Shown: positions 3,288 through 23,152 of the stretch, piece after piece | Numbering within the stretch: the first letter of the stretch is position 1 | Layout: each line of letters begins with the position of its first letter | Source: an uncultured Neomegalonema sp. | GTDB taxonomy: Bacteria; Pseudomonadota; Alphaproteobacteria; Rhodobacterales; Rhodobacteraceae | DNA length: 41,750 bases | Direction of reading: 5' to 3' | Assembly: GCA_937995735.1 (NCBI GenBank) | Contig: CALKIZ010000054.1 | Span: forward strand, 1 to 41,750 | The notes under the pieces: generated by a model | The model's input: the letters and a program-made list of their open reading frames with translations, nothing else | Databases searched by the model: none | What the model was told of the DNA's origin: nothing | Translations under genes and position numbers: made by a program

Positions 3288-3974
3288 CTATGTCTTTTTC
3301 AACCGTTCTTCTCTGATCCGTTTCGCGAGGCCATCCGAAGGCGTTTTTGTTGCTACGCTGTCGTCAATGCCGCGATAGCGCTGTTCACGCCAGGGATCAC
3401 CGTAATTGTGATAGCCAAGACGCTCCCAAAAGCCTTTCACGTCCCATTCGGCTAAGGTCAACCCCCGCAACCATTTCGCGCTCTTCCAGAAATAGAGCTT
3501 CGGCACAACTAGGCGCGCGGGGCCGCCATGTTCCTGGGTTAAGGGTTTGCCGTCAAAGTCGAGGGCGACAAAGGCTTTTCCGCCGGTCAAATCTTCCAGT
3601 TTGAGGTTGGAGGAATACTCACCATCCGCATGGGCTTGCAGGTATTTGGCCCGTGGCTGAACCCCTGCGGCCTCGAATAACGTATCGAGCGAGACTCCAC
3701 GCCAGACGGTGTCCAGCTTTGACCAGCGCGTAACGCAATGAATATCAACGGTAAACTCCTGCATGGGCAGGGCATTGAACGAGGCCCAGTCGAAGGACAG
3801 CGGCGTTTCAACCAGCCCGTCCACGGTGAACGTCCACTCTTCTTTCGGCGTAATGCGCGGTGTCCCGGCGGTAAGGACCGGGAATTTTTCCGTCACACGT
3901 TGCCCCGGCGGAATACGTCCCGAGGGGTCGGCAGGGCGCGCATGGGCGGGGCGGGGGTCAAAGTCTTTAGTCAT
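3288..3974 (-). CDS. Sulfite-oxidase-fold molybdopterin oxidoreductase
   Basis: Encodes 228 residues of the sulfite oxidase / YedY (MsrP) molybdoenzyme fold. HCVTRWSKLDTVWRGV carries the cysteine expected to ligate molybdenum, and the C-terminal half has the family motifs GGPARLVVPKLYFWKSAKW and GFWERLGYHNYGDPW. Unlike periplasmic MsrP (about 330 residues with a twin-arginine signal), this protein has no signal peptide or membrane segment, so it belongs to the short cytosolic group whose substrate is unsettled. No heme subunit (MsrQ-like) is adjacent. ATG 3974 (MTKDFDPRP) was preferred over upstream starts, whose extra 55 codons overlap the rpmI promoter region and look non-coding. The gene diverges from rpmI-rplT. 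Confidence 0.85.
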   Translation of the reverse strand: MTKDFDPRPAHARPADPSGRIPPGQRVTEKFPVLTAGTPRITPKEEWTFTVDGLVETPLSFDWASFNALPMQEFTVDIHCVTRWSKLDTVWRGVSLDTLFEAAGVQPRAKYLQAHADGEYSSNLKLEDLTGGKAFVALDFDGKPLTQEHGGPARLVVPKLYFWKSAKWLRGLTLAEWDVKGFWERLGYHNYGDPWREQRYRGIDDSVATKTPSDGLAKRIREERLKKT

Positions 3975-3989
3975 AACGGTTTCCAAGGG

Positions 3990-4018
3990 TTGCGCAGGGG
4001 TATTGCACCGAGTATACA
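3990..4018 (+). promoter_or_regulatory. Promoter candidate for rpmI-rplT
   Basis: TTGCGC (3990-3995), a 17-base spacer and TATACA (4013-4018) resemble a sigma-70 promoter and leave a leader of about 65 bases before rpmI. Consensus match only. The infC gene that often precedes rpmI is absent, so a promoter here is required. Confidence 0.45.
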
Positions 4019-4089
4019 CTGCGCTCTTGACGATGATCCGGCCAGTGTGGGCTGCCGAGGTCGTCTGAATACGCACTAAGGAGAGCGAA

Positions 4090-4287
4090 ATGCCCAAGAT
4101 GAAGACCAAGTCTGGCGTTAAAAAGCGCTTTAAGATCACGGCCAGTGGTAAGATTAAATCGGCTCAAGCTGGTAAACGCCATGGTATGATTAAAAGAACC
4201 CGTAAGTTTATTCGTGACGCGCGTGGTACAACGGTTCTGTCAGAGCCGGATACCAAGATCGTCAAACAATTCATGCCATACGGCTAA
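4090..4287 (+). CDS. rpmI: 50S ribosomal protein L35
   Basis: A 65-residue, strongly basic protein beginning [21 protein letters not shown], the typical L35 N-terminus, and ending YG. L35 is a structural component of the large ribosomal subunit. A good ribosome site (AAGGAGAG) lies 6 bases before the ATG. rplT follows after 12 bases, the normal co-transcribed pair. infC is not upstream; a divergent molybdoenzyme gene is there instead. Confidence 0.98.
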
Positions 4288-6527: not shown

Positions 6528-7394
6528 CTAACCACCCAAAAACAGTTGCCCGACTTTCGGATTGGCGAGCAGTTCATCGCCTTTGCCCGCGATGGCCACT
6601 TCGCCGGAAACGAGCACATAGCCAATATCGGCAAACTCGAGTCCCTTTTTCGCGTTCTGCTCGACCATGATAATGGTTTTCCCGTCGCGCCGTTGCAGGT
6701 CATCGAGGATTTCAAACACCATATCAATGAAGCGCGGCTCCAACCCGATGGACGGCTCGTCCACCAACAGCACCTCCGGGTTCATCACCAGCGCCCGCGA
6801 GATTTCAAGCAAGCGACGCTCGCCGCCCGACAGAACTTTCGCCTGATGCTTACGGCGCGCGGCAAGGCGTGGGTATTTGTCGAAAACCATCTCAGCGGAT
6901 TGTTTCGCCTCGGCGGGCTGGTCTTTCAGAAAGCCCCCCATCCAGAGATTCTCTTCCACGGTCATGCCGGGAAAGACGGACTTATCCTGAAGGATATAGG
7001 CGATACCCGCATTCGCCAGTTTTTCGCTCGGCGTCAATTTCGTGACGTCTTCGCCATTCACCACGATCTTGCCACCGAAGATATTCGTGAATCCGAAAAT
7101 AGAATGAAGGATTGTCGATTTACCCGCACCATTCGGCCCGATCAGGCACAGCGATTGCCCTTTGCCAACGCGCAAATCAATGTCGTGCAGAATCTCCATT
7201 TTTCCATACCCGGCGCGCAGGTTTTGGATCGAGACATGCGCCTCGCCATTGGAGAGTTCTTCAAGACGGGAGACGGGGATTTCTTCGGCAATCGCCGCGA
7301 CTTGCCGCGTGACATCTTCGACGGAAATGACGGTATCGACACCGCCCGCACCATATCCGCTGACTGGTTTTTTCTGTTCGTTAGGCTCGCTCAT
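6528..7394 (-). CDS. livF: ABC transporter ATP-binding protein, LivF type
   Basis: ATPase subunit of a branched-chain-amino-acid-type (HAAT) importer, on the cytoplasmic face. Visible are Walker A GPNGAGKST, ABC signature LSGGERRLLEISRAL and Walker B VLLVDEPSIGLEP. At 288 residues it is about 50 longer than ordinary LivF because of an N-terminal extension (about 1-48, with GYGAGGVDTVISVEDVTRQV) before the first strand SIQNLRAGYGKMEIL. ATG 7394 overlaps the livG stop (TAATG), which supports this start. It is the last gene of the liv set and is followed by an intrinsic terminator. The true substrate may not be an amino acid, because HAAT importers also carry diacids, amides and urea. Confidence 0.92.
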   Translation of the reverse strand: MSEPNEQKKPVSGYGAGGVDTVISVEDVTRQVAAIAEEIPVSRLEELSNGEAHVSIQNLRAGYGKMEILHDIDLRVGKGQSLCLIGPNGAGKSTILHSIFGFTNIFGGKIVVNGEDVTKLTPSEKLANAGIAYILQDKSVFPGMTVEENLWMGGFLKDQPAEAKQSAEMVFDKYPRLAARRKHQAKVLSGGERRLLEISRALVMNPEVLLVDEPSIGLEPRFIDMVFEILDDLQRRDGKTIIMVEQNAKKGLEFADIGYVLVSGEVAIAGKGDELLANPKVGQLFLGG

Positions 7395-8137
7395 TAGTGC
7401 GCTCCCAAATAAGCATCGATCACGGTTTGATCGTTCTGAATGTCTTCGGGACCGCCACTGGCCAACATCTCGCCATGGGCCAGACAATAGATGTGATCGG
7501 CCATGTTCATAATGACGCGCATATTATGCTCGATCACGAACAGGGTAATGCCGAACTCAGAATTTGCGCGCTTGAGCCTGTCGATCAAGCCGTTGATCAG
7601 CGTTGGATTGATCCCCGCCGTTGGCTCGTCCAGCAACAGCACGGTCGGTTCGTTCATCAATGCCATTGCGAATTCGAGCAGCTTTTGCTGGCCGAAAGAC
7701 AACGAACCACCCCGCAAATAACGCTTTTCATAAAGGCCGACGAAATCAAGCAACCCTTCGGCCCGTTCGATTTGTTCGGCGTCGTTGCGCGAGAACGCAT
7801 CCCAAAACGTCATCTTCCGGTGCGGCATTGAGATCAGCATATTCTCAACGCAGTTCATCGCGCCGTAAATGCGGGTTTGTTGAAACGTGCGCAGCAAGCC
7901 GAGCCGCGCAATAGCAGGGACTTGCAGCTTGGATATTTCCGATCCTTCGAACTTGATCGACCCTTTATCAATCGGGTGATAGCCGACGATGGAGTTAAAC
8001 AGCGTGGTTTTCCCCGATCCATTCGGACCGATCAGGCCGGTGATGCCGCCCTTTTGCACCTGCATCGAAATATCACTGTTCGCTTTGACACCGCCATAAG
8101 ATTTGGAGACGCCGCTGACTTCGATAATCGCATTCAT
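7394..8137 (-). CDS. livG: ABC transporter ATP-binding protein, LivG type
   Basis: Second ATPase of the HAAT importer, 247 residues. It has Walker A GPNGSGKTT, signature LSFGQQKLLEFAMAL and Walker B VLLLDEPTAGINPTLI, plus the LivG-typical VCRTFQ-like segment LLRTFQQTRIYG. The start ATG overlaps the livM stop in an ATGA arrangement, and its stop overlaps livF, so livM-G-F are translationally coupled. Confidence 0.93.
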   Translation of the reverse strand: MNAIIEVSGVSKSYGGVKANSDISMQVQKGGITGLIGPNGSGKTTLFNSIVGYHPIDKGSIKFEGSEISKLQVPAIARLGLLRTFQQTRIYGAMNCVENMLISMPHRKMTFWDAFSRNDAEQIERAEGLLDFVGLYEKRYLRGGSLSFGQQKLLEFAMALMNEPTVLLLDEPTAGINPTLINGLIDRLKRANSEFGITLFVIEHNMRVIMNMADHIYCLAHGEMLASGGPEDIQNDQTVIDAYLGAH

Positions 8138-9174
8138 TCTGCGGCCTCCGCAGTCGAGGTGTCGCGGGTCTCAACGCGAATGCCGAACCATTCCGGTTTT
8201 TTCGACATCAGCCACCCCATCAATCCGTCTTGGAAATAAACGACGGTCACAACGATCAACGCGCCGAGCGCAACCCATTGCCACCCGAGGAAATAATTCC
8301 ATGTGATTTCTTTGAAGACATGGAACATGATCGCCCCAATGATTGGTCCCCAAAGCGTACCTTTCCCGCCAAGCAGCACGCAGACGACCATAAAGATGCC
8401 GAGGTTGATCGTTTGATACGCTGTTTCCAATGGCTCAAAGTGGAGGGCTTGAAAGGCTTCGATTGCGCCAACGATACCGACAAAAAATGCGGCGATGGCC
8501 CATGCGACCAGTTTATAGCGCAGGGTATGGATGCCCATTGCTTCGGCTTTTTCCTCATCATCGCGGATCGCATTCATCGCGGCGGCAAAGCGCGTCGTGT
8601 ATAGCCAGCGCAAAAAGATATAGAGGACGACACCAACTGTCGCGAAGCTGTAATAGGTGAACAGGCGTTCTTGTTCGCCCGGATAATTCGGCATCGAGAT
8701 GCCTTGCCCGCCGCCAACCCATTCCCAGTTCGACACCAACTCACCGGCGGCAATCGCGACACCGAGCGTCCCTATGGCAAAGTAAGGCCCGCGCAGACTA
8801 AACGTGACTGAGCCGATAATGATGGCGCAAGCGGCGCAAAAAAGACCCGCTCCGATCAGGCCGAACCCGAACCCCATGAAATACTGTGTCGGGGTAAAGG
8901 CGAAAATTCCACCGCCCGCAGCATCGGTATATTCGCCGACGTCATAGGCTATTCCGATTGTGATAATCGCCGCGACATACATTCCTGTGCCGTAGAAAAA
9001 GATATTGCCGAGCGAGTTATATCCCATCTGGCCGCCGGTCAGATCCCAGGTCAAGGCGACAATAATCAAAATCCAAAGCGCCGACAGGGACGAGCGATAA
9101 TCCGGCAACAGAAAAGGCGCTGTAATAACGAGAGTGAGCAGCAAGACATGGATGACAGGCATAAAACGGGTCAT
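8134..9174 (-). CDS. livM: ABC transporter permease, LivM type
   Basis: Inner-membrane permease of 346 residues with eight to ten hydrophobic segments. The N-terminal part has ALTWDLTGGQMGYNSLGN, matching the LivM family pattern (ALxxNLxxGxxGxxSLGH). The C-terminal cytoplasmic loop has the coupling-helix motif AMNAIRDDEEKAEAMGI. A strong ribosome site (AAAGGAGG) precedes the ATG. LivH is 14 bases upstream. Confidence 0.93.
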   Translation of the reverse strand: MTRFMPVIHVLLLTLVITAPFLLPDYRSSLSALWILIIVALTWDLTGGQMGYNSLGNIFFYGTGMYVAAIITIGIAYDVGEYTDAAGGGIFAFTPTQYFMGFGFGLIGAGLFCAACAIIIGSVTFSLRGPYFAIGTLGVAIAAGELVSNWEWVGGGQGISMPNYPGEQERLFTYYSFATVGVVLYIFLRWLYTTRFAAAMNAIRDDEEKAEAMGIHTLRYKLVAWAIAAFFVGIVGAIEAFQALHFEPLETAYQTINLGIFMVVCVLLGGKGTLWGPIIGAIMFHVFKEITWNYFLGWQWVALGALIVVTVVYFQDGLMGWLMSKKPEWFGIRVETRDTSTAEAAE

Positions 9175-9188
9175 TGTGCGCTCCTCCT

Positions 9189-10100
9189 TTATTGCAAGAC
9201 TTGGCGCTTACGCCGTTGAATGAGCAAGCGCACGACCAACACCAACAGCAAGAGCAGAACCGCAATCGCCTGTTGATAGCCAATCCCGAAAATATGACTG
9301 CCATATTGTTCAGCGGCTCCGATCCCCAGACCCGCCGCGATAACCCCCGGCAGGTTGCCTAGCCCTGCGGCGGTCACAATGACGAAGGCTCGAATAGAAT
9401 AAGTGATGCCGTAGAAGGGCTGAATCACCCATGCCATCACGATAATCGCGCCTGCGGCTCCGCAAATTGCCGAATTGAGCGAGAAGGTGAAAGCGTAGAC
9501 TTTTTCCGTGTCGATGCCGAGCACCCTTGCGGCGCGGGCATCTTGCGCGGTGGCGCGAATGGCTTGCCCCATCCGGCTGCGCTTCATAAAGATAATCACA
9601 CCGGCGGCCAGCGACAGTGCCATGCAAACGCCGATCAGTTTCGAGATGGGAACGTCGATTAAACCATCCGCGAAGTGCAGTGTGTCATACCCGAGATCAA
9701 TACTCTGGGTGTCCGATCCGAACATCAGGTTGAGGATTTGCGCCATCATAATGGCCAACCCGAATGTTGCGAGCAGCGATGTAAAAAGGTCGCGCTCAAT
9801 CACACGAGAGATCACCAGTTTATAGATCACCCATCCGATGCCCCACATGATGATGAAAGCAGCCGGAACGCCCAAGAGCGGGTGTATGCCTTTTTGCGTC
9901 ATCCACCACGCGACATACCCACCGGCAATGACGAAATCCCCTTGGGCGAGGTTTTTGACATTCATCACCCCCCAAACAAGGGCAAGGCCATAAGCGGCGA
10001 GGGCGAAAAGCGCTCCAATCATGACACCATCAATAATGATCTTTAAATTGACGATAGGAAATTGAATTAGGAGATCAATGTTGCCGAGGATCTGGTCCAT
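9189..10100 (-). CDS. livH: ABC transporter permease, LivH type
   Basis: Second permease of the importer, 303 residues, strongly hydrophobic. It contains the LivH signatures DGVMIGALFALAAYGLALVWGVMNVKNLAQGDF near the N-terminus and RAIRATAQDARAARVLGID before the last membrane segments. ATG 10098-10100 (MDQILGNID) was chosen; 18 upstream codons in frame run into the intergenic hairpin and look non-coding. Separated from livK by 86 bases containing a strong stem-loop. Confidence 0.93.
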   Translation of the reverse strand: MDQILGNIDLLIQFPIVNLKIIIDGVMIGALFALAAYGLALVWGVMNVKNLAQGDFVIAGGYVAWWMTQKGIHPLLGVPAAFIIMWGIGWVIYKLVISRVIERDLFTSLLATFGLAIMMAQILNLMFGSDTQSIDLGYDTLHFADGLIDVPISKLIGVCMALSLAAGVIIFMKRSRMGQAIRATAQDARAARVLGIDTEKVYAFTFSLNSAICGAAGAIIVMAWVIQPFYGITYSIRAFVIVTAAGLGNLPGVIAAGLGIGAAEQYGSHIFGIGYQQAIAVLLLLLVLVVRLLIQRRKRQVLQ

Positions 10101-10141
10101 ACAACCTCTCGAGCGCGCTGCGTTGCGCGACAAATATGGAA

Positions 10142-10169
10142 AAACCGGGCACACTATAATGCCCGGTTT
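10142..10169 (-). terminator. Hairpin between livK and livH
   Basis: AAACCGGGCA / TGCCCGGTTT form a perfect 10-bp stem with an 8-base loop, followed on the minus strand by TTCC. The T-run is short, so it is best read as a partial terminator or 3'-end stabiliser that leaves more livK than livH-F message, common for binding-protein operons. Confidence 0.6.
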
Positions 10170-10186
10170 CGATAAGGTTCAGGCTG

Positions 10187-11416
10187 TTACTTACGCGGCC
10201 AGTCAAGGCCGTGGGAAGCAAATGCCGATGGAGCAACCACGTTATATTCGCCGTTCTGAATTTGGCGCAGCACCATCGGTTTCGCGATGTTATTACCCGC
10301 ATCCGAGAACTTGATACGACCGTAGAAGGTTGTCATATCCGTCGCGCTGATCGCTTCACGAACCGCGTCCTTATCCAGCGTGCCGGCCCGTTCGAAAGCC
10401 GACATGAACACCATCACAGCCGCGGATGCCTGTGCGGTTTGGTAAGGAACTTTCTTCTCTTTGTACTCTGGGTACGCGCTTTTGAACTCTTGTTCGTAGT
10501 TCGCAGCGGTTCCGAAAACCGGGTCCCAATAGCTGAGCGTTTCAGCCCATTGTGTCGAGCACAAGATACCATCTGCAGCATCGCCAAAGTTACCCGTCAC
10601 GTCTGCTGCCTCGCAGTGAGTCAGCGCAATCATTGGAACTTTGATGTTCTGCTCTTTAATCTGACGAACCGCAGTCGCCGCGCCTTTGGAGTGGCCGGAA
10701 ACAACCAGCAGATCAGGCTTGAGCAGCTTTACCTTTGTCAGGATTGCCGACATATCGGAGAGGTCGCGCGGCAGTTTTTCGTCAATGACGACATTCATCC
10801 CGACACGCCCCGCATCTTCGAGAACACCCGCACGGATGTCGAGAGAGAACGGATCGTTTTCAACCGCAATAGCAACCTTGATGTCGCCTGCGTCTTTGCC
10901 GTCTTTCTTCGCCATTTCTTCAGCGAGAGTTACCGCCGACGCGAGGTATTGCTCGGATGTTGAAAGCACGGCGAAGAGGTATTTGTATCCTTTGTTAAAC
11001 AGCGAACGCGAGGCGCCTTCTGCCTCAACCATCGGAATTTTGTAACGCTCAGTGACAGGCGCGATTGCCTTGGTCAGACCGGACGAATACGGCCCGAGCA
11101 TGTATTGAACTTTATCCTGCGAGATCAGGCGTTCGGCCAATGTCGCACCACGGTCGCCTTTGGACTCGTCGTCGTAATAGATGACATTGAAGTTGTAACA
11201 TTTGCCGTCGACTTTAATGCCGCCGTTTTCCTTGATCTTTTTGATCGCGAACTCATAACCGTTTTTAGCGTGAACGCCGTTCGTAGCGTATTTGCCGGTC
11301 AGTGAGATTGCCGATCCAAGTACAATTTCCTCACACTCCGCAGCATATGCTGATGAAGGTGCGGTAGTCGCCAGTGCTACAAGAGCAGGCGCAAATATAG
11401 CGCTCCATTTCTTCAT
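10187..11416 (-). CDS. livK: Periplasmic binding protein, Leu/Ile/Val-BP (HAAT) family
   Basis: Solute receptor of the importer, 409 residues. An N-terminal signal peptide (MKKWSAIFAPALVALATTAPSSAYAA, cleavage near residue 26) has no lipobox, so a soluble periplasmic protein is expected. The mature part begins with the family pattern IVLGSAISLTGKYATNG and shows YYDDESKGDRGATLAERLI and LGPYSSGLTKAIAPVTERY. It forms the type I periplasmic binding fold. Cysteines in CEEIV and CYNF may form a disulfide. It has its own promoter candidate and a GGGAGAG ribosome site. The ligand cannot be read from sequence; the neighbouring diacid enzymes suggest an organic acid. Confidence 0.92.
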   Translation of the reverse strand: MKKWSAIFAPALVALATTAPSSAYAAECEEIVLGSAISLTGKYATNGVHAKNGYEFAIKKIKENGGIKVDGKCYNFNVIYYDDESKGDRGATLAERLISQDKVQYMLGPYSSGLTKAIAPVTERYKIPMVEAEGASRSLFNKGYKYLFAVLSTSEQYLASAVTLAEEMAKKDGKDAGDIKVAIAVENDPFSLDIRAGVLEDAGRVGMNVVIDEKLPRDLSDMSAILTKVKLLKPDLLVVSGHSKGAATAVRQIKEQNIKVPMIALTHCEAADVTGNFGDAADGILCSTQWAETLSYWDPVFGTAANYEQEFKSAYPEYKEKKVPYQTAQASAAVMVFMSAFERAGTLDKDAVREAISATDMTTFYGRIKFSDAGNNIAKPMVLRQIQNGEYNVVAPSAFASHGLDWPRK

Positions 11417-11498
11417 GGATTCTTCTCTCCCTAATGTGAAGCTCGTTGCGAGTCTTATTATCGCCGGAGATCATTCGCCTCCGTACTTTATACCCTTG

Positions 11499-11526
11499 AC
11501 TATAGACTCAACATTTCAAGACGCAA
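11499..11526 (-). promoter_or_regulatory. Promoter candidate for livKHMGF
   Basis: On the minus strand TTGCGT (11521-11526), a 16-base spacer and TATAGT (11499-11504) precede livK by about 82 bases. The site lies in the only sizeable gap between the hydroxyacid dehydrogenase and livK. Consensus match only. Confidence 0.45.
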
Positions 11527-11538
11527 TATCTCAGAGGT

Positions 11539-12471
11539 TTATTTATGATTGAGCGCTTTCAGCACATTTGCGGCGGTCATTCGGCTGACACGTTCGTTGG
11601 ATTCTTCTGTGACACCGGCGATATGCGGCGTCAGAATGACATTGCTCAATCCATTGTAAAGCCTGCCTGAATCTGCCGTCAGTGGTTCTTCTGCAAAGAC
11701 ATCTATAGCCGCCCCGCCGAGGTGACCGGAGCGGAGAGCCTCCGCCACTGCGCGGTCATCTGCCACACCCCCGCGCGCGGCATTGATCAGCATCGTGCCC
11801 GGTTTCATTCTCGCGATTGTGTTCTTTGAGATGATGTGAGCGGTTTCTTCGGTCAGTGGCGTATGCAGCGTCAGAACATCCGCCGTCGCCAATACAGCAT
11901 CGAGGTCGGCTTTGTCCGCCAGCGACCAAACAGGATCATCGGCGGGGATATAAGGATCATACCCGACGACCTTCATTCCCATCGCTTTTGCGCGCGAGGC
12001 CGCGTTACGTCCCGTTTGCCCCAACCCGATAACCCCGAGGGTTTTGCCGGACATTTCCCGACCGATATACGCCTCTCGGGGCCAAGCCCCTGCCGCCACT
12101 GCGCCCGTCGCTTGATACCCGCCAATGCGAAGCAAAGCTGCTGTCATTGCCACGACATATTCACCGACCGATTGCGCATTGGCTCCGTCGGCTTTGACCA
12201 CGCTCACACCGCGCGCGGCACAAGCGGGAAGGTCGAACTTTTCAAGACCCACCCCGAGGCGTCCAATCACCTCTAATTTTGGCCCCGCATCCAATACCCT
12301 CTGATCGACCTGTGCACTGGACCGGACGATCAATCCCCGCACTGACGCGATCTCAGAAAAAAAGCGCGGTTCATCGAAAACAAGCTGCGGATCATACAGC
12401 ACCTCGGCTTTTGTTTTCAGCCACTCAACCGCTGTTTCATCCATAAATTCGCAGATAACGATTTTTGTCAT
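11539..12471 (-). CDS. D-isomer-type 2-hydroxyacid dehydrogenase (SlcC-like)
   Basis: NAD(P)-dependent oxidation of a 2-hydroxyacid to a 2-oxoacid. The 310 residues have the family layout: catalytic domain halves around a Rossmann domain with GVIGLGQTGRNAA, the active-site arginine in NAARGGV, the glutamate in DVFAEEPL and the histidine in LTPHIAGVTEES. The N-terminus ICEFMDETAVEWL...YDPQLV resembles, from memory, the (S)-sulfolactate dehydrogenase SlcC and its relatives more than SerA; there is no ACT domain. It is the last gene of the sdh-fum-TSUP row (31 bases after the second permease gene), so its substrate is probably the hydroxyacid made by the fumarase. D-lactate, malate-like acids or sulfonated hydroxyacids are all possible. 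Confidence 0.82.
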   Translation of the reverse strand: MTKIVICEFMDETAVEWLKTKAEVLYDPQLVFDEPRFFSEIASVRGLIVRSSAQVDQRVLDAGPKLEVIGRLGVGLEKFDLPACAARGVSVVKADGANAQSVGEYVVAMTAALLRIGGYQATGAVAAGAWPREAYIGREMSGKTLGVIGLGQTGRNAASRAKAMGMKVVGYDPYIPADDPVWSLADKADLDAVLATADVLTLHTPLTEETAHIISKNTIARMKPGTMLINAARGGVADDRAVAEALRSGHLGGAAIDVFAEEPLTADSGRLYNGLSNVILTPHIAGVTEESNERVSRMTAANVLKALNHK

Positions 12472-12502
12472 GGCTTAAATCTTTCGCTCAAAAGGACGCG
12501 GT

Positions 12503-13249
12503 TTAGACCAGCGCCCGCCGGATAATATTCAGCCCCATCAACAGAAAGACAATGAGCACGGCACTTTGAAACCGTTCAACCGGCAACCGCTTGCGCAGCA
12601 TTTCGCCGAGCTGAAATCCGATTAAAGCGGGGATCACGAGCGAAATCGACAGGACCATGCGCGATTGATCAAACAGCCCATGATACCAAAACCCCACCAC
12701 AAGCGGGATGGCTCCGAGCGTAATCAACAGACCCGTCGCGCGAATAAACTCGTCCGGTGCAACGCGGCGACCGAGCAAATAAATCACGATAGGCGCGGCC
12801 CATACCGATGTCAGCCCGCCAATAATACCGGCGATTGCGCCGCATATAAATTGCGCAGGGGTATCCCATTTTTTCGGCAAAGGCGGCGGCTTGAACAACA
12901 GGCTGATAAGCGAGAAAGCCACGACGACTCCGCCGATGATGAGCAGCAACCCTTGCTGTGAAACCGAAGCGGTCAGCGATGTGGTGAACCAAAGCACCAC
13001 CATCAACGATCCGGCGAAATAACGATAGTCTTTGAGCGCGCGCAGTAAATCTCCTGCGCGAACCATCTGCCACGCATTCGAGATAAAGGTCGGAAAGACA
13101 ACAAGCGCGACCGCTGTTTTCGCATCAATAACTTGCGACAACAGGCCAATGGCTGCGGTGGGCATCCCGATCCCAATCGTCCCTTTCACCAAGCCCGCAA
13201 TCAGAAAAGTGACGACGGAAAAGACGATGAGAAAGTCATGCTCCGTCAC
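12503..13249 (-). CDS. TSUP (TauE/SafE) family permease 2
   Basis: An integral membrane protein of 248 residues with seven to eight hydrophobic segments arranged in two similar halves. GLVKGTIGIGMP at the N-terminus and GIIGGLTSVWAAPIVIYLL in the middle match the repeated TSUP motif. Family members move small organic anions or sulfur oxoanions (sulfite, sulfoacetate, taurine-derived sulfite), mostly outward. The GTG start overlaps the stop of the preceding permease gene (GTGA). The pair may form a heteromer or serve two substrates. Confidence 0.85.
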   Translation of the reverse strand: MTEHDFLIVFSVVTFLIAGLVKGTIGIGMPTAAIGLLSQVIDAKTAVALVVFPTFISNAWQMVRAGDLLRALKDYRYFAGSLMVVLWFTTSLTASVSQQGLLLIIGGVVVAFSLISLLFKPPPLPKKWDTPAQFICGAIAGIIGGLTSVWAAPIVIYLLGRRVAPDEFIRATGLLITLGAIPLVVGFWYHGLFDQSRMVLSISLVIPALIGFQLGEMLRKRLPVERFQSAVLIVFLLMGLNIIRRALV

Positions 13250-13986
13250 GCGAATGCCTCTCGTGCCAGTAAAATAATACCGGACAAGAGTAGCATGGCG
13301 ATCAGCAAACGGCGGAATTGATTGTCGCTCAATCTGTTAAACGCTGCAATCCCAAGCTGTGCCACGATCATGGTTGCTGGCAAGGCCACGAGGATGATTA
13401 TCAAAGTCTCGCGGTCATAAGCCCCGTCAAACGCAAGCGCGATTGCCGACACCCCGAGGATCGAAATGTTATAGGGTTGAAGAACAGCGCGCGTTGTCTC
13501 TTTCGCCCAATCCCGCATCGACAGCCACATCGTTGGCAAAGCCCCGGACAGCCCCGCAATCGCTCCGAGTATTCCCCCGGCGAACCCGATGGCTTTATCA
13601 ATGATCGGTGTTGGTTTCGTGAGGTTCGGCAAGTCTTTGCGCAGTGTGAAAAACCCGCCATAGGCCAGCATGAATAACGCCACAACGAGTTTCAGATGAT
13701 CCGCATTAATCCGCTCTAAAATCTGCAAGCCGATGGGAATCCCGAGCAATCCAGGTAACAGGAACGGCGATAACCGGGACCATTCGATAGATTTGCGCAC
13801 ATGGATCACGCCCTGAAAACTGCTCACAACGGACATCACCAGAATAACCGCGACCGCTTGCTGAGGCGGCATCACCTGTAACCACCAGCCGAGCGCAAAC
13901 AGAGCCGTGCCGAATCCGGCGAGGCCACTGATAAACCCGCCCGCCGCTGCGCCAATCATCAGAAAGGCGATGAATTCGACTGTCAC
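13246..13986 (-). CDS. TSUP (TauE/SafE) family permease 1
   Basis: An integral membrane protein of 246 residues. GGFISGLAGFGTALFALGWW near the N-terminus and AGGILGAIAGLSGALPTMWL in the middle are the two TSUP repeat motifs. It starts with GTG 6 bases after the fumarase beta-subunit stop, so it belongs to the same transcript. It is only distantly similar to the adjacent TSUP protein, so the pair does not look like a recent duplication. Confidence 0.85.
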   Translation of the reverse strand: MTVEFIAFLMIGAAAGGFISGLAGFGTALFALGWWLQVMPPQQAVAVILVMSVVSSFQGVIHVRKSIEWSRLSPFLLPGLLGIPIGLQILERINADHLKLVVALFMLAYGGFFTLRKDLPNLTKPTPIIDKAIGFAGGILGAIAGLSGALPTMWLSMRDWAKETTRAVLQPYNISILGVSAIALAFDGAYDRETLIIILVALPATMIVAQLGIAAFNRLSDNQFRRLLIAMLLLSGIILLAREAFA

Positions 13987-13992
13987 GCGGCC

Positions 13993-14664
13993 CTATCCGA
14001 TCACTTCGTCAGAGCGGTCGTCGGTTTCGCCATAGCGTTTCAGGACGGCGGGCTTTGTGCCTTCATAGGCTTTGGCGAGGTTGGCGGCGATTTTCTCATT
14101 CTCGCGCTCGAACAGGCAATTTCCCTGATTGTCTGACGCGACAATGAACGGTCCCATCTTATTGCAGCGTAGAACCCACATGGCTTGCGCGATCCCGAGT
14201 TCCTCGTTCCAGTGGACAGCCTCGACATTCTCCACCCCGCGCCCGAGCAACGCGCCCGTGCCATATCCAACCGTGGAGAGATAAATCGCCCCGCGCGGCA
14301 CGAAATGCTCTTTATAAGTCTTCGAGTTCATACCGCCTTTACCGACGATCAGTTTTGCGCCGGATTTGTCCATCCATTCGGGCAACCATTTCTCGAAACG
14401 AAAAGACGCCGTTGCCGTCACCGCGCCCATCTCGAACGAGCCATCAGGATTAATCCGTGCCGCAGGCGAGCAATGAAAATTCGCGGCACTGTCGCGGGGC
14501 AGCTCCATCGGGATATTGGCTTTATCTTCAAGCGCCCGCATGTAAACGCCCTCGCGCGCGGTGTACATCAGGCCATCAAGATAAACGACATCCCCAAGCC
14601 GCAAATCCGCAAGGGCTTCCGGTGTTGGCGTGGTAGAGAGGCGGATTTCGCGAGGCTTACTCAT
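13993..14664 (-). CDS. Class I fumarase-type hydro-lyase, beta subunit
   Basis: A 223-residue protein equal to the C-terminal part of class I fumarase (FumA) or to TtdB. It starts with the strand IRLSTTPTPEALADLRLGDVVYLDGLMYTAREG and contains IVGKGGMNSKTYKEHFVPRGAIYL and WVLRCNKMGPFIVASDNQGN, the family's swivelling-domain motifs. With the alpha subunit it adds water to (or removes it from) a dicarboxylate: fumarate/malate, mesaconate/citramalate or tartrate/oxaloacetate are known for the family. The start ATG overlaps the alpha-subunit stop (ATGA). A longer frame upstream is an antisense-like shadow of the alpha gene. Confidence 0.88.
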   Translation of the reverse strand: MSKPREIRLSTTPTPEALADLRLGDVVYLDGLMYTAREGVYMRALEDKANIPMELPRDSAANFHCSPAARINPDGSFEMGAVTATASFRFEKWLPEWMDKSGAKLIVGKGGMNSKTYKEHFVPRGAIYLSTVGYGTGALLGRGVENVEAVHWNEELGIAQAMWVLRCNKMGPFIVASDNQGNCLFERENEKIAANLAKAYEGTKPAVLKRYGETDDRSDEVIG

Positions 14665-15617
14665 TCCGCCGCCTCCGCCATAGGAGGCCAGTCGACTGTT
14701 TCCCGGCGTTGGTAGTCGGTGAACCAATCGGGGTCTGTGCGGTGTTCTACGCGGCCATCGGGAAAGACGCGGGCGACGGCACGGCGGGAGGAGAGGCAAA
14801 AGGCGTGGACGCTCATTTGCATTCCGCCGGTGTGGCAATAGCCGACCTCGATATTGCAATCGACCACCATCGACTTACCGACAAAGCCCATCGCCCCCAT
14901 GCCGATGGAATTGCCAAGCTCTTTAAATTCATCTTCCAATTCGGCAATACGCGGATCAGAGTTCTTACTCCCGACCGTGCGCAAACACGCCGCGCGCTTG
15001 CCGAGGACCATGCAGGTATCTTTGCACCCACCCAACCCGATGCCGATGATTGCCGGCTGACAGGCAAGGCCGCGTTTGCCGAAGGCGACAAGACTATCGA
15101 GGTAAAACCGCTTGATTCCTTGGATACCATCCGACGGAAACAGCATCCGATAATCCGTGCCGAACAACCCGCCTTTATGGACGGTTATGAGGTCAATCCA
15201 CTCGCCGCCCGGCTCATAGCCGTATTCGATCTCGGGCGCGCCGATGCCGACATTGTTGTCATGGTCCGTCCGCCACAAAGGATGCACGCGGTTAGGGCGC
15301 AGCGGCACACCGTTGGTCGCATTGGCGGTCGCGCGCCGGAGCGCGGTTTCAAGCGCAATCGGCCCACCCTCGATTTGTGTCTCGTTGCCCATCTTCACAT
15401 ACCAGCGCGGCGTGCCGGTATCCCCGCACATGGCGCGGCGATCTTCTTTCGCGGCCTTATAGTTCTCCAGCATCGCTTGCAGGACAAAAGACGACAGGTC
15501 GCCATCCTCGACCTTGGCAGCGGCTTTCAGCCCATCAAGATAATCCTGCGGAATCTCAATCGCCGCCTTGTCCATCAGCGTTTCAGCAGTGGATTGGATG
15601 AGGTCTATGGGGATCAA
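14661..15617 (-). CDS. Class I fumarase-type hydro-lyase, alpha subunit
   Basis: A 318-residue protein equal to the N-terminal part of class I fumarase / TtdA, which binds an oxygen-sensitive [4Fe-4S] cluster that activates water. Motifs are AMCGDTGTP (first cluster cysteine), GIGLGGCKDTCMVLGKRA and the NSIGMGAMGF segment. I chose a TTG start at 15617 (MIPIDLIQST): GGAGG lies 8 bases upstream and the protein then begins where family members do. A GTG at 15650 in frame would add 11 residues without a ribosome site. The 203-bp gap to the flavoprotein gene holds two repeats, so this may be a separate mRNA segment. Confidence 0.88.
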   Translation of the reverse strand: MIPIDLIQSTAETLMDKAAIEIPQDYLDGLKAAAKVEDGDLSSFVLQAMLENYKAAKEDRRAMCGDTGTPRWYVKMGNETQIEGGPIALETALRRATANATNGVPLRPNRVHPLWRTDHDNNVGIGAPEIEYGYEPGGEWIDLITVHKGGLFGTDYRMLFPSDGIQGIKRFYLDSLVAFGKRGLACQPAIIGIGLGGCKDTCMVLGKRAACLRTVGSKNSDPRIAELEDEFKELGNSIGMGAMGFVGKSMVVDCNIEVGYCHTGGMQMSVHAFCLSSRRAVARVFPDGRVEHRTDPDWFTDYQRRETVDWPPMAEAAE

Positions 15618-15680
15618 TGGGCTGGCCTCCGACGTAATGTACCTGCTCACCTCTCAGTGGAGCGAACCTTTCAGCTAGTC

Positions 15681-15703
15681 ATACTCGGACTTGTTCCGAG
15701 TAT
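15681..15703. repeat. Short palindrome, ATACTCGGA type
   Basis: ATACTCGGA / TCCGAGTAT form a perfect 9-bp stem with loop CTTGT, flanked by GTC on the left and CCAG on the right. The pattern GTCAT-arm-loop-arm-ATCC is shared with the palindrome at 34427-34448, so both probably belong to one family of dispersed palindromes of the sort common in alphaproteobacteria. Confidence 0.6.
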
Positions 15704-15714
15704 CCAGATTTCTT

Positions 15715-15778
15715 GAAAAATGGGAGAAGCGCAGCTTCGACACGCGACGACCGCCCCCCGGGCGGCGCGTGCCGCACC
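15715..15778 (+). repeat. 64-bp structured dispersed repeat, copy 1
   Basis: Starts GAAAAATGGGAG, has hairpin GAAGC-GCA-GCTTC, then CGACACGCG, then a GC-rich hairpin (CCGCCC / GGGCGG), and ends CCGCACC. A second copy lies at 21729-21794 on the other strand. Both hairpins are kept with paired changes between the copies. Confidence 0.75.
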
Positions 15779-15820
15779 GCCCGCGCTCGTCGCTTATCTT
15801 TTGATAATAGAGACCTGCCA

Positions 15821-17575
15821 TCATTCCTCCGCCACCAATGTTTCCGGTTCGCTGTCGGGTAAGATCGTCTCACCCGGTTTGACGATGGTGAATTGAACCG
15901 GCTCGCGGGTCACGTCCAGCCCGTCGCCTGCTTGCTTCGCCACGGTAAAGTAAGACGTCTCAAGTGCGCCTTCCTCGGGGAAGTCTTCACGGAAATGCGC
16001 GCCGCGTGAGTTCTCGCGCGCTAAGGCAGCTTCGGTAATCACCGTCGAGACATCGCACAGGCTGCGCATGTTCAGCCAATCATGCCAAGTCAGATTAAAA
16101 GCCCGCGTCGTGCCATCGACGCCGAGGCCCATCAACTCGGCCCCGATCTCTTGCACACGTTTTAAGCCGCGCTGCATCCCCGTCGCCGTGCGCATCACGC
16201 CAACATCTTCCCACATCGCGTCCATCAGCTCTTTGCGCAGAGGATGGATATGCGCAGGCATTTGCGCAAACGGAACCAGTGCCCGTGCAATTTCCGCCTC
16301 CAGCACAGCCTCGTCTGGATCGCGCAAAGCGCTGATGCCGGCAATGTCTTTGCCCATCACATCACCGGCAACACCGCCATAAACCGTCGAGTTCGCAACA
16401 CCATTCCCGCCGAGGCGGTTAGAGCCATGCGCGCCGCCCGCATCTTCGCCCGCAACATATAGCCCTTCCATCGCCGTGCGCGTCTCCGCATCAACGACCA
16501 CACCGCCCATAAAGTAATGCGCGGTGGGCACGACTTCGACTTTACCGCCCGCCAGATCGAACCCGCTATCGGCACAGCGTTTGACCATGCCTTTGAACTT
16601 TTTGGCGACATTCTCGGGGCCAAGATGCGCCATCGAGATATAAACCCCGCCATTGGGGGAGGCGTTGTTCTTGCGCATCTCGGCAAAGATACCCCGGCTG
16701 ACCACATCGCGGGTGGCGCGCTCGCCTTTGGCATCATAGTCGAACATAAAGCGGTTATCAGCGCCATTGAGAAGCTGTCCGCCCGCACCGCGCAAGCCCT
16801 CCTCAAGTACCGTGCCGGTCATCTTGGTGTGATCTCCTGCCAGCAATCCGGTGGGGTGAAACTGCACCATCTCCATATCGCGCAAAGGCAACCCCGCGCG
16901 CAGCGCCATCGCGAGGCCATCCATTGTCTTATCACCGGAGGGCGTGTGGTATTTATACATGGTCGGGCCGCCGCCCGTCGCCATCAACACCGCCTTGGCC
17001 CGCACAAACCGGAAATCACCCGTGCGCATGTCGATGAATAACACCCCCGACAGAGCCGCGCCGTCTTTTGTCGGGATCAACCCAATCGCGCGGTGTTCTT
17101 GCAGGCGTTCGACAGGGCGCGACAGCACTTGTTCCATCAAGCGATTGATAATCTCGATGCCCGTCAGGTCGCCCTTATGAACGGTACGGTCTGCGGTTTG
17201 ACCGGCGAAGGCTTTGTGGTGCAAAGACCCATCGGCATTGCGATCGAAGAAACACCCGACCTCGTTTTCAAGTTCGCGCACCCGCACCACGGCTTGCTCG
17301 CACAGCTTCCACGCCATGTCCTGATCAGGCAACCATTTACCGCCCTTGATCGTATCCATGAAGTGCCGCTCGACCGTATCCCCTGTGCCGAGCGCCACGT
17401 TATACCCGCCTTGCACCATGCGCGTGCAGCCGCATTTGCCGAGCAAGCCCTTCACCGCAATCGTGATCTTTGCATCCGGTGCGCTTTGCTGTGCATGAAG
17501 CGCGGCAAAAAGACCCGCACCCCCTGTGCCGAGGATCAAAATATCCGTGTCATGGCGCTCGATTTTCATGATCAT
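15821..17575 (-). CDS. sdhA: Succinate dehydrogenase/fumarate reductase-like flavoprotein
   Basis: FAD-binding catalytic subunit, 584 residues, of a membrane complex that exchanges electrons between a succinate-like acid and quinone. It has the dinucleotide site GTGGAG (about 16-21) and all substrate-site motifs: QFHPTG, LEEGLRGAGG, ATRDVVSRG, HYFMGGV and GSNRLGGNG. The segment that normally carries the FAD-linking histidine (SHTVAAQGG) reads CGCTRMVQGGYN at about 48-59, so FAD is probably not covalently bound. The C-terminal domain contains HDWLNMRSLCDVS. ATG 17575 overlaps the stop of the preceding anchor gene; ATG 17569 is an alternative. Gene order B-anchor-anchor-A differs from the canonical sdhCDAB, so this is probably a specialised paralog rather than the TCA-cycle enzyme. 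Confidence 0.9.
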   Translation of the reverse strand: MIMKIERHDTDILILGTGGAGLFAALHAQQSAPDAKITIAVKGLLGKCGCTRMVQGGYNVALGTGDTVERHFMDTIKGGKWLPDQDMAWKLCEQAVVRVRELENEVGCFFDRNADGSLHHKAFAGQTADRTVHKGDLTGIEIINRLMEQVLSRPVERLQEHRAIGLIPTKDGAALSGVLFIDMRTGDFRFVRAKAVLMATGGGPTMYKYHTPSGDKTMDGLAMALRAGLPLRDMEMVQFHPTGLLAGDHTKMTGTVLEEGLRGAGGQLLNGADNRFMFDYDAKGERATRDVVSRGIFAEMRKNNASPNGGVYISMAHLGPENVAKKFKGMVKRCADSGFDLAGGKVEVVPTAHYFMGGVVVDAETRTAMEGLYVAGEDAGGAHGSNRLGGNGVANSTVYGGVAGDVMGKDIAGISALRDPDEAVLEAEIARALVPFAQMPAHIHPLRKELMDAMWEDVGVMRTATGMQRGLKRVQEIGAELMGLGVDGTTRAFNLTWHDWLNMRSLCDVSTVITEAALARENSRGAHFREDFPEEGALETSYFTVAKQAGDGLDVTREPVQFTIVKPGETILPDSEPETLVAEE

Positions 17576-17913
17576 ATCGCCTGTAAAAAGAACGTGCCGG
17601 AGATAAGCACCGACACGCCAACCGCGCCTGCCGCCAGTGTCTTTTGCCTCGGCGACCATGGCAACCATTCCAGTGCCATCAGGCGCAATCCCCCGAACAG
17701 ATGCACAGCCAGCAGAAACACTAACCCGAACTCCGCAATCTTAACGGCGGTTATGTCCGTCCAGTGCAAAAATTCGTCAAGGCGTTCCGGCGATGTCAGA
17801 GCGAGCGACAACACCCAAAAATGAACCGGCAAAAACAAAGCCAGTGCCACGCCTGAAATCCGGTGCAGGATAAACGCAAACCACAGCGGATGAGAGCGAT
17901 GCGGGCGGATCAT
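17572..17913 (-). CDS. Cytochrome b-type membrane anchor of the SDH-like complex
   Basis: 113 residues with three hydrophobic segments. The N-terminus RPHRSHPLWFAFILHRISG matches the SdhC pattern (RPxSPHLxIY ... HRxSG), and VHLFGGLRLMALEW matches the late H-x2-GG-x-R motif, including candidate heme-ligand histidines. It should anchor the A and B subunits and help form the quinone site. The ATG overlaps the previous stop, and its own stop overlaps the flavoprotein start. Confidence 0.82.
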   Translation of the reverse strand: MIRPHRSHPLWFAFILHRISGVALALFLPVHFWVLSLALTSPERLDEFLHWTDITAVKIAEFGLVFLLAVHLFGGLRLMALEWLPWSPRQKTLAAGAVGVSVLISGTFFLQAI

Positions 17914-18242
17914 AATGCCGTCACCGCGTAAACCGCCTGCGCACCCATCGCGAAAAGCACCAAAAAGACAGCCCAAGCGAACACGTTGAGCGCGCTTCCC
18001 TTCAGGCCAACGACCTCAAAGGCTATGGTCCGCAACCCAATCGCGGCATGAACCGAAACCGCGACAACGAATGTGCCATAGAACAGCGCCCAACCGAAAC
18101 TGCCTTGTGTGCGGCCAAGGATTTCTCCGGCGGATAACCCGCCTTGGATCGCGTAGATCATCACCGCGATATGGCCCAGCACAAGCGGGGCCATGACAAA
18201 CGCGCTAATCCGTTGCGCCATATAAAGCCGCAGGTCGGTCAT
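17910..18242 (-). CDS. Second membrane anchor of the SDH-like complex
   Basis: 110 residues with three hydrophobic segments. RLYMAQRISAFVMAPLVLGHIAVM and a later VHAAIGLRTIAFE give histidines in membrane segments 1 and 2, as in small anchor subunits of SDH/fumarate reductase. Sequence similarity within this family is low, so the call rests largely on position and topology. The ATG overlaps the sdhB stop (ATGA). Confidence 0.75.
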   Translation of the reverse strand: MTDLRLYMAQRISAFVMAPLVLGHIAVMIYAIQGGLSAGEILGRTQGSFGWALFYGTFVVAVSVHAAIGLRTIAFEVVGLKGSALNVFAWAVFLVLFAMGAQAVYAVTAL

Positions 18243-18970
18243 GCCTTTCTCCGGGTGAAAAACGCCTTCGCCGTCTCGCGCTTCAACCCCGCGATAGAGG
18301 CCATCGGGTTCAACTCGTTCGGGCAAGCCTCGGCGCAACTGCCCATGCTGTGACAGGAATGACAGCCTCCATTGGCAGACACCGCATCAAGGATGGTCTG
18401 CTTCCCGCCGTCTTTGGCATCATTAAACAGCGTCCAGGCGCGGTTCAGCGCTGCTGGTCCCAGATAGTCAGAGTTGCTTGAAACCGCATCGCACGCCGCA
18501 TAACAAATCGAGCAATTAATGCATTCAATGCCGATATCCGCTTCCGTGCGTTCATGGCTGGTCGGGTCGATCTGTTCAATCGCATCATTGCGGGTTTTAG
18601 AGGGATGAAACACCCCCTCCGCCTTGATCCATTTGTCAAAGAAAGGGTCCATATCGGTGGCGAGGTCTTTGATAACGGGCAGGTTGCGCAGCGGTGCAAT
18701 CTCTATCTTATTGCCGCTGATGACCTTTTGAACATGAGTGCGGCAGGTCCAGCGTGGCTTGCCATTGACCATCATCGCGCAAGAGCCGCACATCCCGACA
18801 CGGCAGGCAAAACGATACGCCAGCGTGGGGTCTTCGTTTTGTTGAATCCACGCGACAACATCAAGGATCGTCTGGCTTTCCTGAGCAGGCACGGCAAAAG
18901 CCTGATATGCTCCGCCAGTGTCGTTGGACCGCCAGACCGAAACATCAAGAGTTTTAGTAGTGCTTGTCAC
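18239..18970 (-). CDS. sdhB: Succinate dehydrogenase/fumarate reductase-like iron-sulfur protein
   Basis: Electron-transfer subunit, 243 residues. The [2Fe-2S] site is CRVGMCGSCAMMVNGKPRW plus a following cysteine. The second domain has CINCSICYAAC for [4Fe-4S] and CHSCHSMGSCAEACP for the remaining cluster or clusters. In the latter an extra cysteine pair (CHSC) precedes the usual pattern, so cluster content could differ from standard SdhB. It starts with GTG, with AAGG six bases before. It is the first gene of a 12-kb minus-strand block and diverges from uvrD. No regulator gene is adjacent. Confidence 0.9.
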   Translation of the reverse strand: MTSTTKTLDVSVWRSNDTGGAYQAFAVPAQESQTILDVVAWIQQNEDPTLAYRFACRVGMCGSCAMMVNGKPRWTCRTHVQKVISGNKIEIAPLRNLPVIKDLATDMDPFFDKWIKAEGVFHPSKTRNDAIEQIDPTSHERTEADIGIECINCSICYAACDAVSSNSDYLGPAALNRAWTLFNDAKDGGKQTILDAVSANGGCHSCHSMGSCAEACPNELNPMASIAGLKRETAKAFFTRRKA

Positions 18971-23121: not shown

Positions 23122-23152
23122 CGGTTCAGGTCAGGGTGTCCGCCCCCGAAAG

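Follow-up and report, generated by a model that had tools for sequence, protein, structure and literature searches.

The enzymes considered here resemble two well-described systems: complex II, the succinate dehydrogenase (SDH) SdhABCD, and the two-subunit class I fumarases and L-tartrate dehydratases. The closest described pathways are the SlcC/ComC-SuyAB route of sulfolactate breakdown and the route from homotaurine to 3-sulfopropanoate in Cupriavidus necator H16. Relatives of these enzymes are brought together in the window, a stretch of 41,750 nucleotides from contig CALKIZ010000054.1 of an uncultured Neomegalonema species. It carries a block of 14 genes, all on the minus strand and spanning positions 18970 to 6528, that encodes an SDH-like complex, a class I fumarase-type enzyme, two TauE/TSUP exporters, a 2-hydroxyacid dehydrogenase and a HAAT importer.

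3-Sulfopropionate is succinate with one carboxylate swapped for a sulfonate. It arises from the fermentation of sulfoquinovose and 2,3-dihydroxypropane-1-sulfonate (DHPS) and from homotaurine. According to the available text of PMC11489063, it is formed in the metabolism of DHPS and of homotaurine, and a thesis cited there is the one earlier account of its degradation by bacteria. As summarised in that text, the thesis has Roseovarius nubinhibens grow on homotaurine by way of 3-sulfopropionate, sulfoacrylate and sulfolactate; the passage names no enzymes for these reactions. A 2026 review (PMC12890257, available in part) calls the mechanism in Bilophila unclear. In the accessible portions of the literature found, no enzyme of the sulfoacrylate or 3-sulfopropionate dehydrogenase type is named.

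The reading favoured here, to which a probability of about 0.53 is given, is that six genes of the block, sdhB-sdhD-sdhC-sdhA-fumA-fumB (the core), form a module for the aerobic use of 3-sulfopropionate, consisting of a dehydrogenase and a sulfoacrylate hydratase and giving sulfolactate in the window organism. In this model, a membrane-bound SDH-like complex would oxidise 3-sulfopropionate to 3-sulfoacrylate, an isostere of fumarate, and pass the electrons to quinone. Next, the fumarase-like enzyme would hydrate sulfoacrylate; the product in the window organism is probably 3-sulfolactate. An SlcC-like dehydrogenase encoded in the operon would act with a ComC-like enzyme and a SuyAB-like pair, both encoded elsewhere in the genome, to convert sulfolactate to pyruvate and sulfite, and the latter would leave the cell through TauE-type proteins. 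Uptake of the sulfonate is probably the task of the HAAT importer. The intermediates named in the thesis correspond to the reactions that the core enzymes would catalyse. The core would offer candidate genes for the aerobic breakdown of 3-sulfopropionate. What the sequences show is the content and conservation of the gene set, its altered active sites and its linkage to genes that handle sulfite; the substrate, the two reactions and their regiochemistry, the SuyAB assignment and the ligand of the transporter are inferred.

A conserved core and a local addition

A scan of genome contigs with fumA gave 306 relatives, and 80 of these loci were fetched. Sixty of the 80 are flanked on each side by at least about 5 kb, and all 60 contain sdhB, sdhD, sdhC, sdhA and fumB. 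The gene order of the core is therefore not a matter of chance, and the conservation across genomes that the sequence-only reading had proposed to check is borne out for the core as a unit. Among the same 60 loci, a homologue of the first TauE/TSUP exporter is present in 54 and a LysR gene in 56. The core is also complete in seven of the eight plasmid loci fetched. In L100, from plasmid pPAN3 of Paracoccus pantotrophus DSM 11072, only part of sdhA and fumAB were found; to judge by eye, large open reading frames (ORFs) upstream code for a transposase and a resolvase.

The whole block was looked for in 97 loci (80 from genome contigs, 8 from plasmids and 9 from whole genomes). Only in L006, whose genes are 93-100% identical to those of the window, do both the dehydrogenase and the full set of five HAAT genes recur with high identity. 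L056 and L120 have more distant genes of the HAAT type near the core (23-41% identity, none of them matching livK), and homologues of the dehydrogenase with 47-50% identity are found in L033, L042 and L102. The block is two things joined rather than the single unit first supposed: the core, usually with a TauE-type exporter, and the dehydrogenase with the HAAT importer, which are a local addition. Importers of other kinds stand near other cores, namely a tripartite tricarboxylate transporter (tctA) in 38 of the 80 loci, a TauABC-like ABC transporter (TauA homologue) in five and a TRAP transporter in two.

The core was found in Rhodobacterales, in Hyphomicrobiales and on plasmids, including those of Pseudomonas and Cupriavidus. 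A fumA match at E 1e-60 or better occurs in 10 of 398 genomes drawn from the phylum, the window's own counted. In a plasmid collection 18 records match, 12 of them at 65% identity or more; these 12 belong to Paracoccus, Sulfitobacter, Pseudorhizobium, its relative NT-25, Methylobacterium, Cupriavidus and Pseudomonas. The candidate route occurs in many Rhodobacterales and on plasmids, and the plasmid records label its genes as succinate dehydrogenase and fumarate hydratase.

The SdhA-like flavoprotein

The window genome (3.69 Mb, 113 contigs, completeness 99.52) has canonical sdhCDA genes on a separate contig, C111. The SdhA-like protein of the window is 35% identical to the canonical SdhA. Like complex II, the window set has four subunits: a flavoprotein with the FAD-binding (flavin adenine dinucleotide) and C-terminal flavoprotein domains (PF00890, PF02910), an iron-sulfur subunit and two Sdh_cyt anchors. 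It differs in its gene order, B-D-C-A followed by fumAB, and in three features of the flavoprotein. The SdhA-like protein passes no NCBIfam cut-off for SDH or fumarate reductase flavoproteins among the 25 listed of 29 models; its best scores are 473.7 for NF004900 (cut-off 718) and 405.8 for TIGR01812 (cut-off 567.3).

The three differences were traced in an alignment of the window protein and 87 relatives, from which rows with stops or poor coverage were dropped and in which near-duplicates were kept. The column of the FAD-anchoring histidine, which is His in the canonical copy, holds Cys in all 88 rows. Every one of the 88 rows likewise has Glu at the equivalent of FrdA Thr244. There is also an inserted loop with a Lys (32 rows) or an Arg (56 rows). 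The equivalents of FrdA His232, Arg287, His355 and Arg390 are invariant, so that four of five substrate-binding or catalytic residues are retained; the alignment to FrdA was made here, and we take the numbered residues to be its dicarboxylate-binding and catalytic positions. It looks as if one carboxylate-binding half of the site has been kept and the other changed.

Because canonical sdhCDA genes lie elsewhere and the Cys and Glu substitutions occur in every row, the core is not the SDH of the tricarboxylic acid (TCA) cycle. The sequence-only reading had proposed a dehydrogenate-then-hydrate route apart from that cycle, and would have been undone had this been the genome's only TCA-cycle SDH; the conserved core and the separate canonical copy support it. 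Genes of this sdh- and fum-like type should not be counted as TCA-cycle enzymes.

A paralogous SDH could still form a spare branch of the TCA cycle together with the working fumarase of the genome. The core's fumA is the sole PF05681 gene in the window genome, a point in favour of such a branch, although class II fumarase (FumC) was not searched for. Set against this are the family-wide changes in the active site and the location of the core with sulfite-handling genes and on plasmids, which make a spare branch highly improbable.

The fumarase-type hydratase

The hydratase of the core shares with the two-subunit class I fumarase MjFH (7xky) its alpha and beta subunits and the Cys, Asp, Arg and Lys columns. 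The Cys of the CGDTG motif and that of the ACQP motif are each present in 98 of 98 alpha rows. A third candidate cluster Cys is found in 94, with Thr in the four most distant rows; we take these columns to be those of the Fe-S cluster. The retained Asp, Arg and Lys columns were chosen by what we take to be the active-site numbering of the Leishmania enzyme. The core hydratase also departs from 7xky. The Gln that follows the first cluster Cys is replaced by Gly in 94 and by Ala in 4 of the 98 rows, and in the beta subunit Ala and Tyr stand where 7xky has Thr and His (96 of 96 rows). For these counts, too, rows with stops or poor coverage were dropped and near-duplicates kept; the window's own genome entered twice into the counts for the beta subunit and for the Asp, Arg and Lys columns.

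Mesaconase and tartrate dehydratase belong to the class I fumarases, and TSUP proteins are not always sulfite exporters. Both facts count for a substrate without sulfur, such as methylsuccinate, tartrate or another substituted succinate, with the TSUP protein exporting an organic anion. This reading is very unlikely in view of three observations set out below: the linkage of sulfite dehydrogenase and PF03601 genes to the core, the co-occurrence of SlcC- and SuyB-like genes, and the greater abundance of what appears to be a matching cluster during growth on a sulfonate, as given in the available text on Paracoccus strain Merri.

Sulfite-handling genes beside the core

In 8 of the 80 loci, fumB has a sulfite dehydrogenase-like gene downstream of it on its own strand. 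A PF03601 "sulfate exporter" gene is placed in this way in nine, and one or both are present in 14. Linkage can also be seen in 38 core-bearing genomes, those of 37 of the 80 loci and the window's own, a hand-chosen set that consists mostly of isolates and is not a random sample. These genomes hold 29 PF03601 genes over the cut-off. Seven are within 4 kb of the core, compared with about 0.05 expected for random placement with kinship ignored, and nine others are, by their coordinates, within 3.5 kb of an Xsc or SuyB-like gene. In M. nodulans and Pseudomonas MPC6, the core is surrounded by genes for sulfite dehydrogenase, cytochrome c, a sulfate exporter and TauE. Homologues of SlcC and ComC also adjoin the core in some relatives.

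A sulfonated acid had been named as a possible substrate from the block alone, with the reservation that the block lacks a sulfo-lyase or a sulfite oxidase. Such genes are indeed absent from the block; the sulfite dehydrogenase, PF03601 and SlcC/ComC genes beside the core in relatives strengthen the case for a sulfonate.

Both TSUP proteins of the window carry the PF01925 domain. They are like the TauE/SafE sulfite exporters in adjoining sulfonate genes, and sulfite is their putative ligand. In the accessible part of PMC11489063, a TauE protein is named as the probable 3-sulfopropionate exporter of Enterococcus gilvus.

In Paracoccus versutus (L033/L102), a region of about 25 kb contains the core and a sulfate exporter, a slcC-comC-like set accompanied by a tripartite transporter of its own and, to judge by coordinates, the suyB-like gene.

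Evidence from expression can be found in Paracoccus strain Merri grown on sulfofucose. In the available text of PMC12421959, nine proteins are raised from its cluster 3, which has 11 locus numbers. The cluster is assigned there to fumarate/tartrate metabolism, possibly linked to the Krebs cycle, and its seventh gene is the TauE homologue MDP0926757. Locus L070, from the same strain, reads sdhB, sdhD, sdhC, sdhA, fumA, fumB, TauE, LysR and three ABC genes, with TauE again the seventh of 11. From gene order and content, we infer that these genes of L070 are the cluster raised on sulfofucose. The published sulfofucose route, in the text available, contains no 3-sulfopropionate step; the induction thus supports sulfonate metabolism but not an exact substrate. 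The inducer may be sulfolactate or sulfite. The proposed module would explain what the "fumarate and tartrate" proteins of this strain do.

A substrate of three or four carbons

Some cores are adjoined by genes that would supply 3-sulfopropionate from 3-hydroxypropanesulfonate or homotaurine. Homologues of succinate-semialdehyde-type dehydrogenases lie near the core in 8 of the 80 loci (seven at an identity of at least 47%, one at 35-36%) and in NT-26. Two were scanned against TIGR01780 (cut-off 646.35): that of NT-26 passes with 690.7, and that of L083 falls just short with 628.2. Zinc alcohol dehydrogenase homologues are found near 13 of the 80 cores (ten at 75% identity or more, three near 30%), and a class III aminotransferase near six. 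The homotaurine route of Cupriavidus necator H16 would deliver the proposed substrate in the same way, via an aminotransferase and a semialdehyde-type dehydrogenase. There 3-sulfopropionate is a by-product, according to the available text of PMC11489063, whereas the core would consume it.

Since semialdehyde, alcohol and malonate-semialdehyde dehydrogenases and aminotransferases adjoin some cores, a C3 sulfonate is preferred over a C4 one; these accessory enzymes favour the C3 succinate isostere 3-sulfopropionate over sulfosuccinate. Sulfosuccinate was the first substrate considered, and was demoted once the feeder and malonate-semialdehyde genes had appeared. It would be oxidised to sulfofumarate and hydrated to an unstable 2-hydroxy-2-sulfosuccinate, which would yield oxaloacetate and sulfite. 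The four-carbon diacid folds of both enzymes suit such a route, the sulfite-handling neighbours fit it equally well, and the tripartite tricarboxylate transporter permease of 38 of the 80 loci could be cited for it. It leaves unexplained the semialdehyde, alcohol and malonate-semialdehyde dehydrogenases, the aminotransferase and the 3-sulfinopropanoyl-CoA desulfinases near some cores, and the literature search found no paper that links sulfosuccinate to enzymes of the SDH or fumarase type. Sulfosuccinate is accordingly judged unlikely, and the C4 skeletons of the sequence-only reading (sulfosuccinate, methylsuccinate, tartrate) have lost ground. Mercaptosuccinate was set aside as well, as the available text of PMC5373536 describes for it a dioxygenase and spontaneous release of sulfite, with no need for an SDH or a fumarase.

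Homologues of 3-sulfinopropanoyl-CoA desulfinase occur in 6 of the 80 loci and in THAF37, and both copies scanned pass the model cut-off. They lie within about 11 kb of the core (L103, positions 22718-23890; L008-L011, L039 and L060). An ORF for a family III CoA-transferase stands between fumA and fumB in nine clustered loci, one of which was scanned. Perhaps these neighbours belong to a sister route for 3-sulfinopropionate.

An acetolactate-synthase-type thiamine pyrophosphate (TPP) enzyme lies near the core in 24 of the 80 loci. It was considered as Xsc and rejected, as two scanned copies reach 151.7 and 148.1 bits against a cut-off of 676.4.

Fate of the hydration product

The 2-hydroxyacid dehydrogenase of the block is probably SlcC, with sulfolactate oxidation as its predicted reaction. 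A homologue with at least 50% identity is present in all eight of the 38 genomes that have a SuyB-like gene, and in three of the 30 that do not (hypergeometric P 3.4e-6, uncorrected for kinship and with SuyB itself a tentative assignment). In the seven SuyB-like genomes besides the window's, the slcC-like and suyB-like genes are on one contig, no more than 14 kb apart.

The window genome has a pair of genes, of 95 and 391 amino acids, that was assigned as suyAB-like because of the gene sizes and pairing, the link to SlcC and the order SuyA-SuyB-SlcC-ComC in strain Merri (PMC12421959, available text). A scan with PF04295 could not separate SuyB from larger dehydratases, and the window's SuyB-like protein was used as the query instead. 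Near the pair is a ComC-like Ldh_2 gene. Of the sulfonate genes named earlier as possible neighbours, a suyAB-like pair is in the genome, together with a ComC-like gene, away from the block. The locus is like the SlcC/ComC-SuyAB route in that homologues of its dehydrogenase co-occur with SuyB-like genes and that suyAB-like and ComC-like genes are in the genome; it differs in that the slcC-like gene lies inside the SDH/fumarase operon, apart from the suyAB-like pair.

On contig C51 of the window genome (L112, positions 8094-10142), the suyB-like gene is separated from the ComC-like one by two genes that were identified by eye, for an HNH-type protein and for a DNA cytosine methyltransferase; this looks like the insertion of a restriction-modification pair into the sulfolactate locus.

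The window genome also contains Xsc (953 bits). It has no match to ComD-alpha, and its best CuyA-like protein scores 276.8, just under the cut-off of 289.4. No CoA-acylating (methyl)malonate-semialdehyde dehydrogenase (MmsA) is over the cut-off. Sulfolactate is favoured as the product in the window organism because SlcC-, ComC- and SuyAB-like genes are present and no malonate-semialdehyde dehydrogenase is over the cut-off. Across the 38 genomes, Xsc is over the cut-off in 31.

Several observations weigh against 3-sulfopropionate as the substrate and sulfolactate as the product. Glu is an unusual residue to find where the carboxylate of an anionic substrate would bind. The suyAB-like pair matches no NCBIfam model for SuyA or SuyB; the sole match of either half is to galactarate dehydratase, with a score far under the cut-off. 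The best model for the ComC-like protein is L-sulfolactate dehydrogenase, at 190 bits against a cut-off of 500. No SuyB-like gene was found in 30 of the 38 core-bearing genomes. The feeder genes adjoin only a minority of loci, and recurrent neighbours of the TPP-enzyme, nitroreductase, glutathione S-transferase, NIPSNAP and mandelate-racemase-like types have no explanation. The lack of a 3-sulfopropionate step in the published sulfofucose route belongs here too. Finally, neither Xsc nor a SuyB-like, ComD-alpha or CuyA-like protein scores over the cut-off in L038 (Pseudorhodobacter aquimaris) or in L073 (Celeribacter halophilus), so that sulfolactate would be a dead end in them, although absence from such draft genomes is no proof. 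Orthologues should share regiochemistry, and thus these two organisms would use either an unknown lyase or a hydratase that itself releases sulfite.

The second of these options leads to another model for the same substrate. Water would be added to the sulfonate-bearing carbon, giving 3-hydroxy-3-sulfopropionate, the bisulfite adduct of malonate semialdehyde, which would fall apart into malonate semialdehyde and sulfite. The core itself would then cleave the C-S bond, independently of SuyAB, Xsc and CuyA. An analogy is the dehalogenase of 3-chloroacrylate, which releases chloride. Such direct desulfonation is a tentative alternative, less probable than the route through sulfolactate, and in the same doubtful measure the core may be a self-contained C-S-cleaving system, made of a complex II relative and an Fe-S hydratase, of a type without counterpart in the literature found.

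Direct desulfonation fits L038 and L073, which have none of the four enzymes over the cut-off and carry a sulfate exporter directly after fumB. The MmsA genes beside some cores count for it as well. In Pseudomonas MPC6 such a gene overlaps fumB by one base, and in Cupriavidus P-10 one lies near the core; both are over the TIGR01722 cut-off. A homologue with 64% identity (unscanned) lies near the core in G143, and fragments are found in M. nodulans and L038. However, few core loci have an adjoining mmsA, and matches near 30% identity represent aldehyde dehydrogenases of other kinds. MmsA is over the cut-off in 9 of 10 core genomes searched (of the 38), so its mere presence is uninformative. The window genome lacks an MmsA over the cut-off, although one would be expected there, and has SlcC-, ComC- and SuyAB-like genes instead. 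The thesis route, as quoted in the available text of PMC11489063, names sulfolactate.

Gene content of the window block

The coordinates of the block are collected in the table. Domain and model scans confirmed the family assignments of all 14 genes, and the 12-kb minus-strand block described from the letters alone stands, apart from several listed ORF starts that are too far upstream. Translations and homologues place the starts of fumB, sdhC, sdhD and sdhA near 14664, 17913, 18242 and 17569. The HAAT importer set is complete by domain scan, with a binding protein, two permeases and two ATPases.

Features of the minus-strand block in the window, with the domain or model matches of each
Feature	Position	Strand	Evidence and remarks
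SdhB-like iron-sulfur subunit	18239..18970	-	PF13085 and 4Fe-4S models; TIGR00384 194 bits (cut-off 88)
SdhD-like membrane anchor	17910..18242	-	PF01127 35 bits (cut-off 25.8); TIGR02968 26.6, under cut-off 41.8; start from translation
SdhC-like cytochrome b556 anchor	17572..17913	-	PF01127; TIGR02970 57.1 (cut-off 52.3)
SdhA-like flavoprotein, proposed 3-sulfopropionate dehydrogenase	15821..17569	-	PF00890 228.5 bits; PF02910 101.7 bits
Perfect 9-bp hairpin in the sdhA-fumA gap	15681..15703	-	no exact copy of its arm in near-identical L006
Class I fumarase-type alpha subunit, proposed sulfoacrylate hydratase	14661..15650	-	PF05681 219 bits; TIGR00722 201.6 (cut-off 100.65)
Class I fumarase-type beta subunit	13993..14664	-	PF05683 73 bits; TIGR00723 116.5, under cut-off 145.15
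TauE/TSUP exporter 1 (core-associated)	13246..13986	-	PF01925 118 bits; homologue in 65/80 loci, there mostly on the opposite strand
TauE/TSUP exporter 2	12503..13249	-	PF01925 77 bits; homologue in 8/80 loci
D-isomer 2-hydroxyacid dehydrogenase, probable SlcC ((S)-sulfolactate dehydrogenase)	11539..12471	-	PF02826/PF00389
LivK-like HAAT substrate-binding protein	10187..11416	-	PF13458
LivH-like permease	9189..10154	-	PF02653
LivM-like permease	8134..9174	-	PF02653
LivG-like ATPase	7394..8137	-	PF00005 and PF12399
LivF-like ATPase	6528..7487	-	PF00005; NCBIfam LivF match begins at residue 84; true start probably inside the listed ORF

The wider gaps noted earlier, at repeats and before livK, are present: 170 bp between sdhA and fumA (to the listed GTG at 15650) and 122 bp between the dehydrogenase and livK. 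The "repeats" amount to the hairpin of the table and one GC-rich inverted repeat, seen by eye, in the sdhA-fumA gap; a repeat search found no array. Promoter-like sites number 10, near the 8.0 expected from shuffling, and terminator-like sites 25, a modest excess over 15.4; neither was used as evidence.

Outside the block, a PF00174 molybdopterin oxidoreductase (3288-4139) adjoins thrS. Its closest models are MsrP, the best, and SoxC, both below the cut-off, and it was not used as a sulfite oxidase. The protein at 146-1009 matches PF16872, a putative phage abortive-infection family, over the cut-off, and a long Sel1-like repeat protein was read by eye at 33190-34359.

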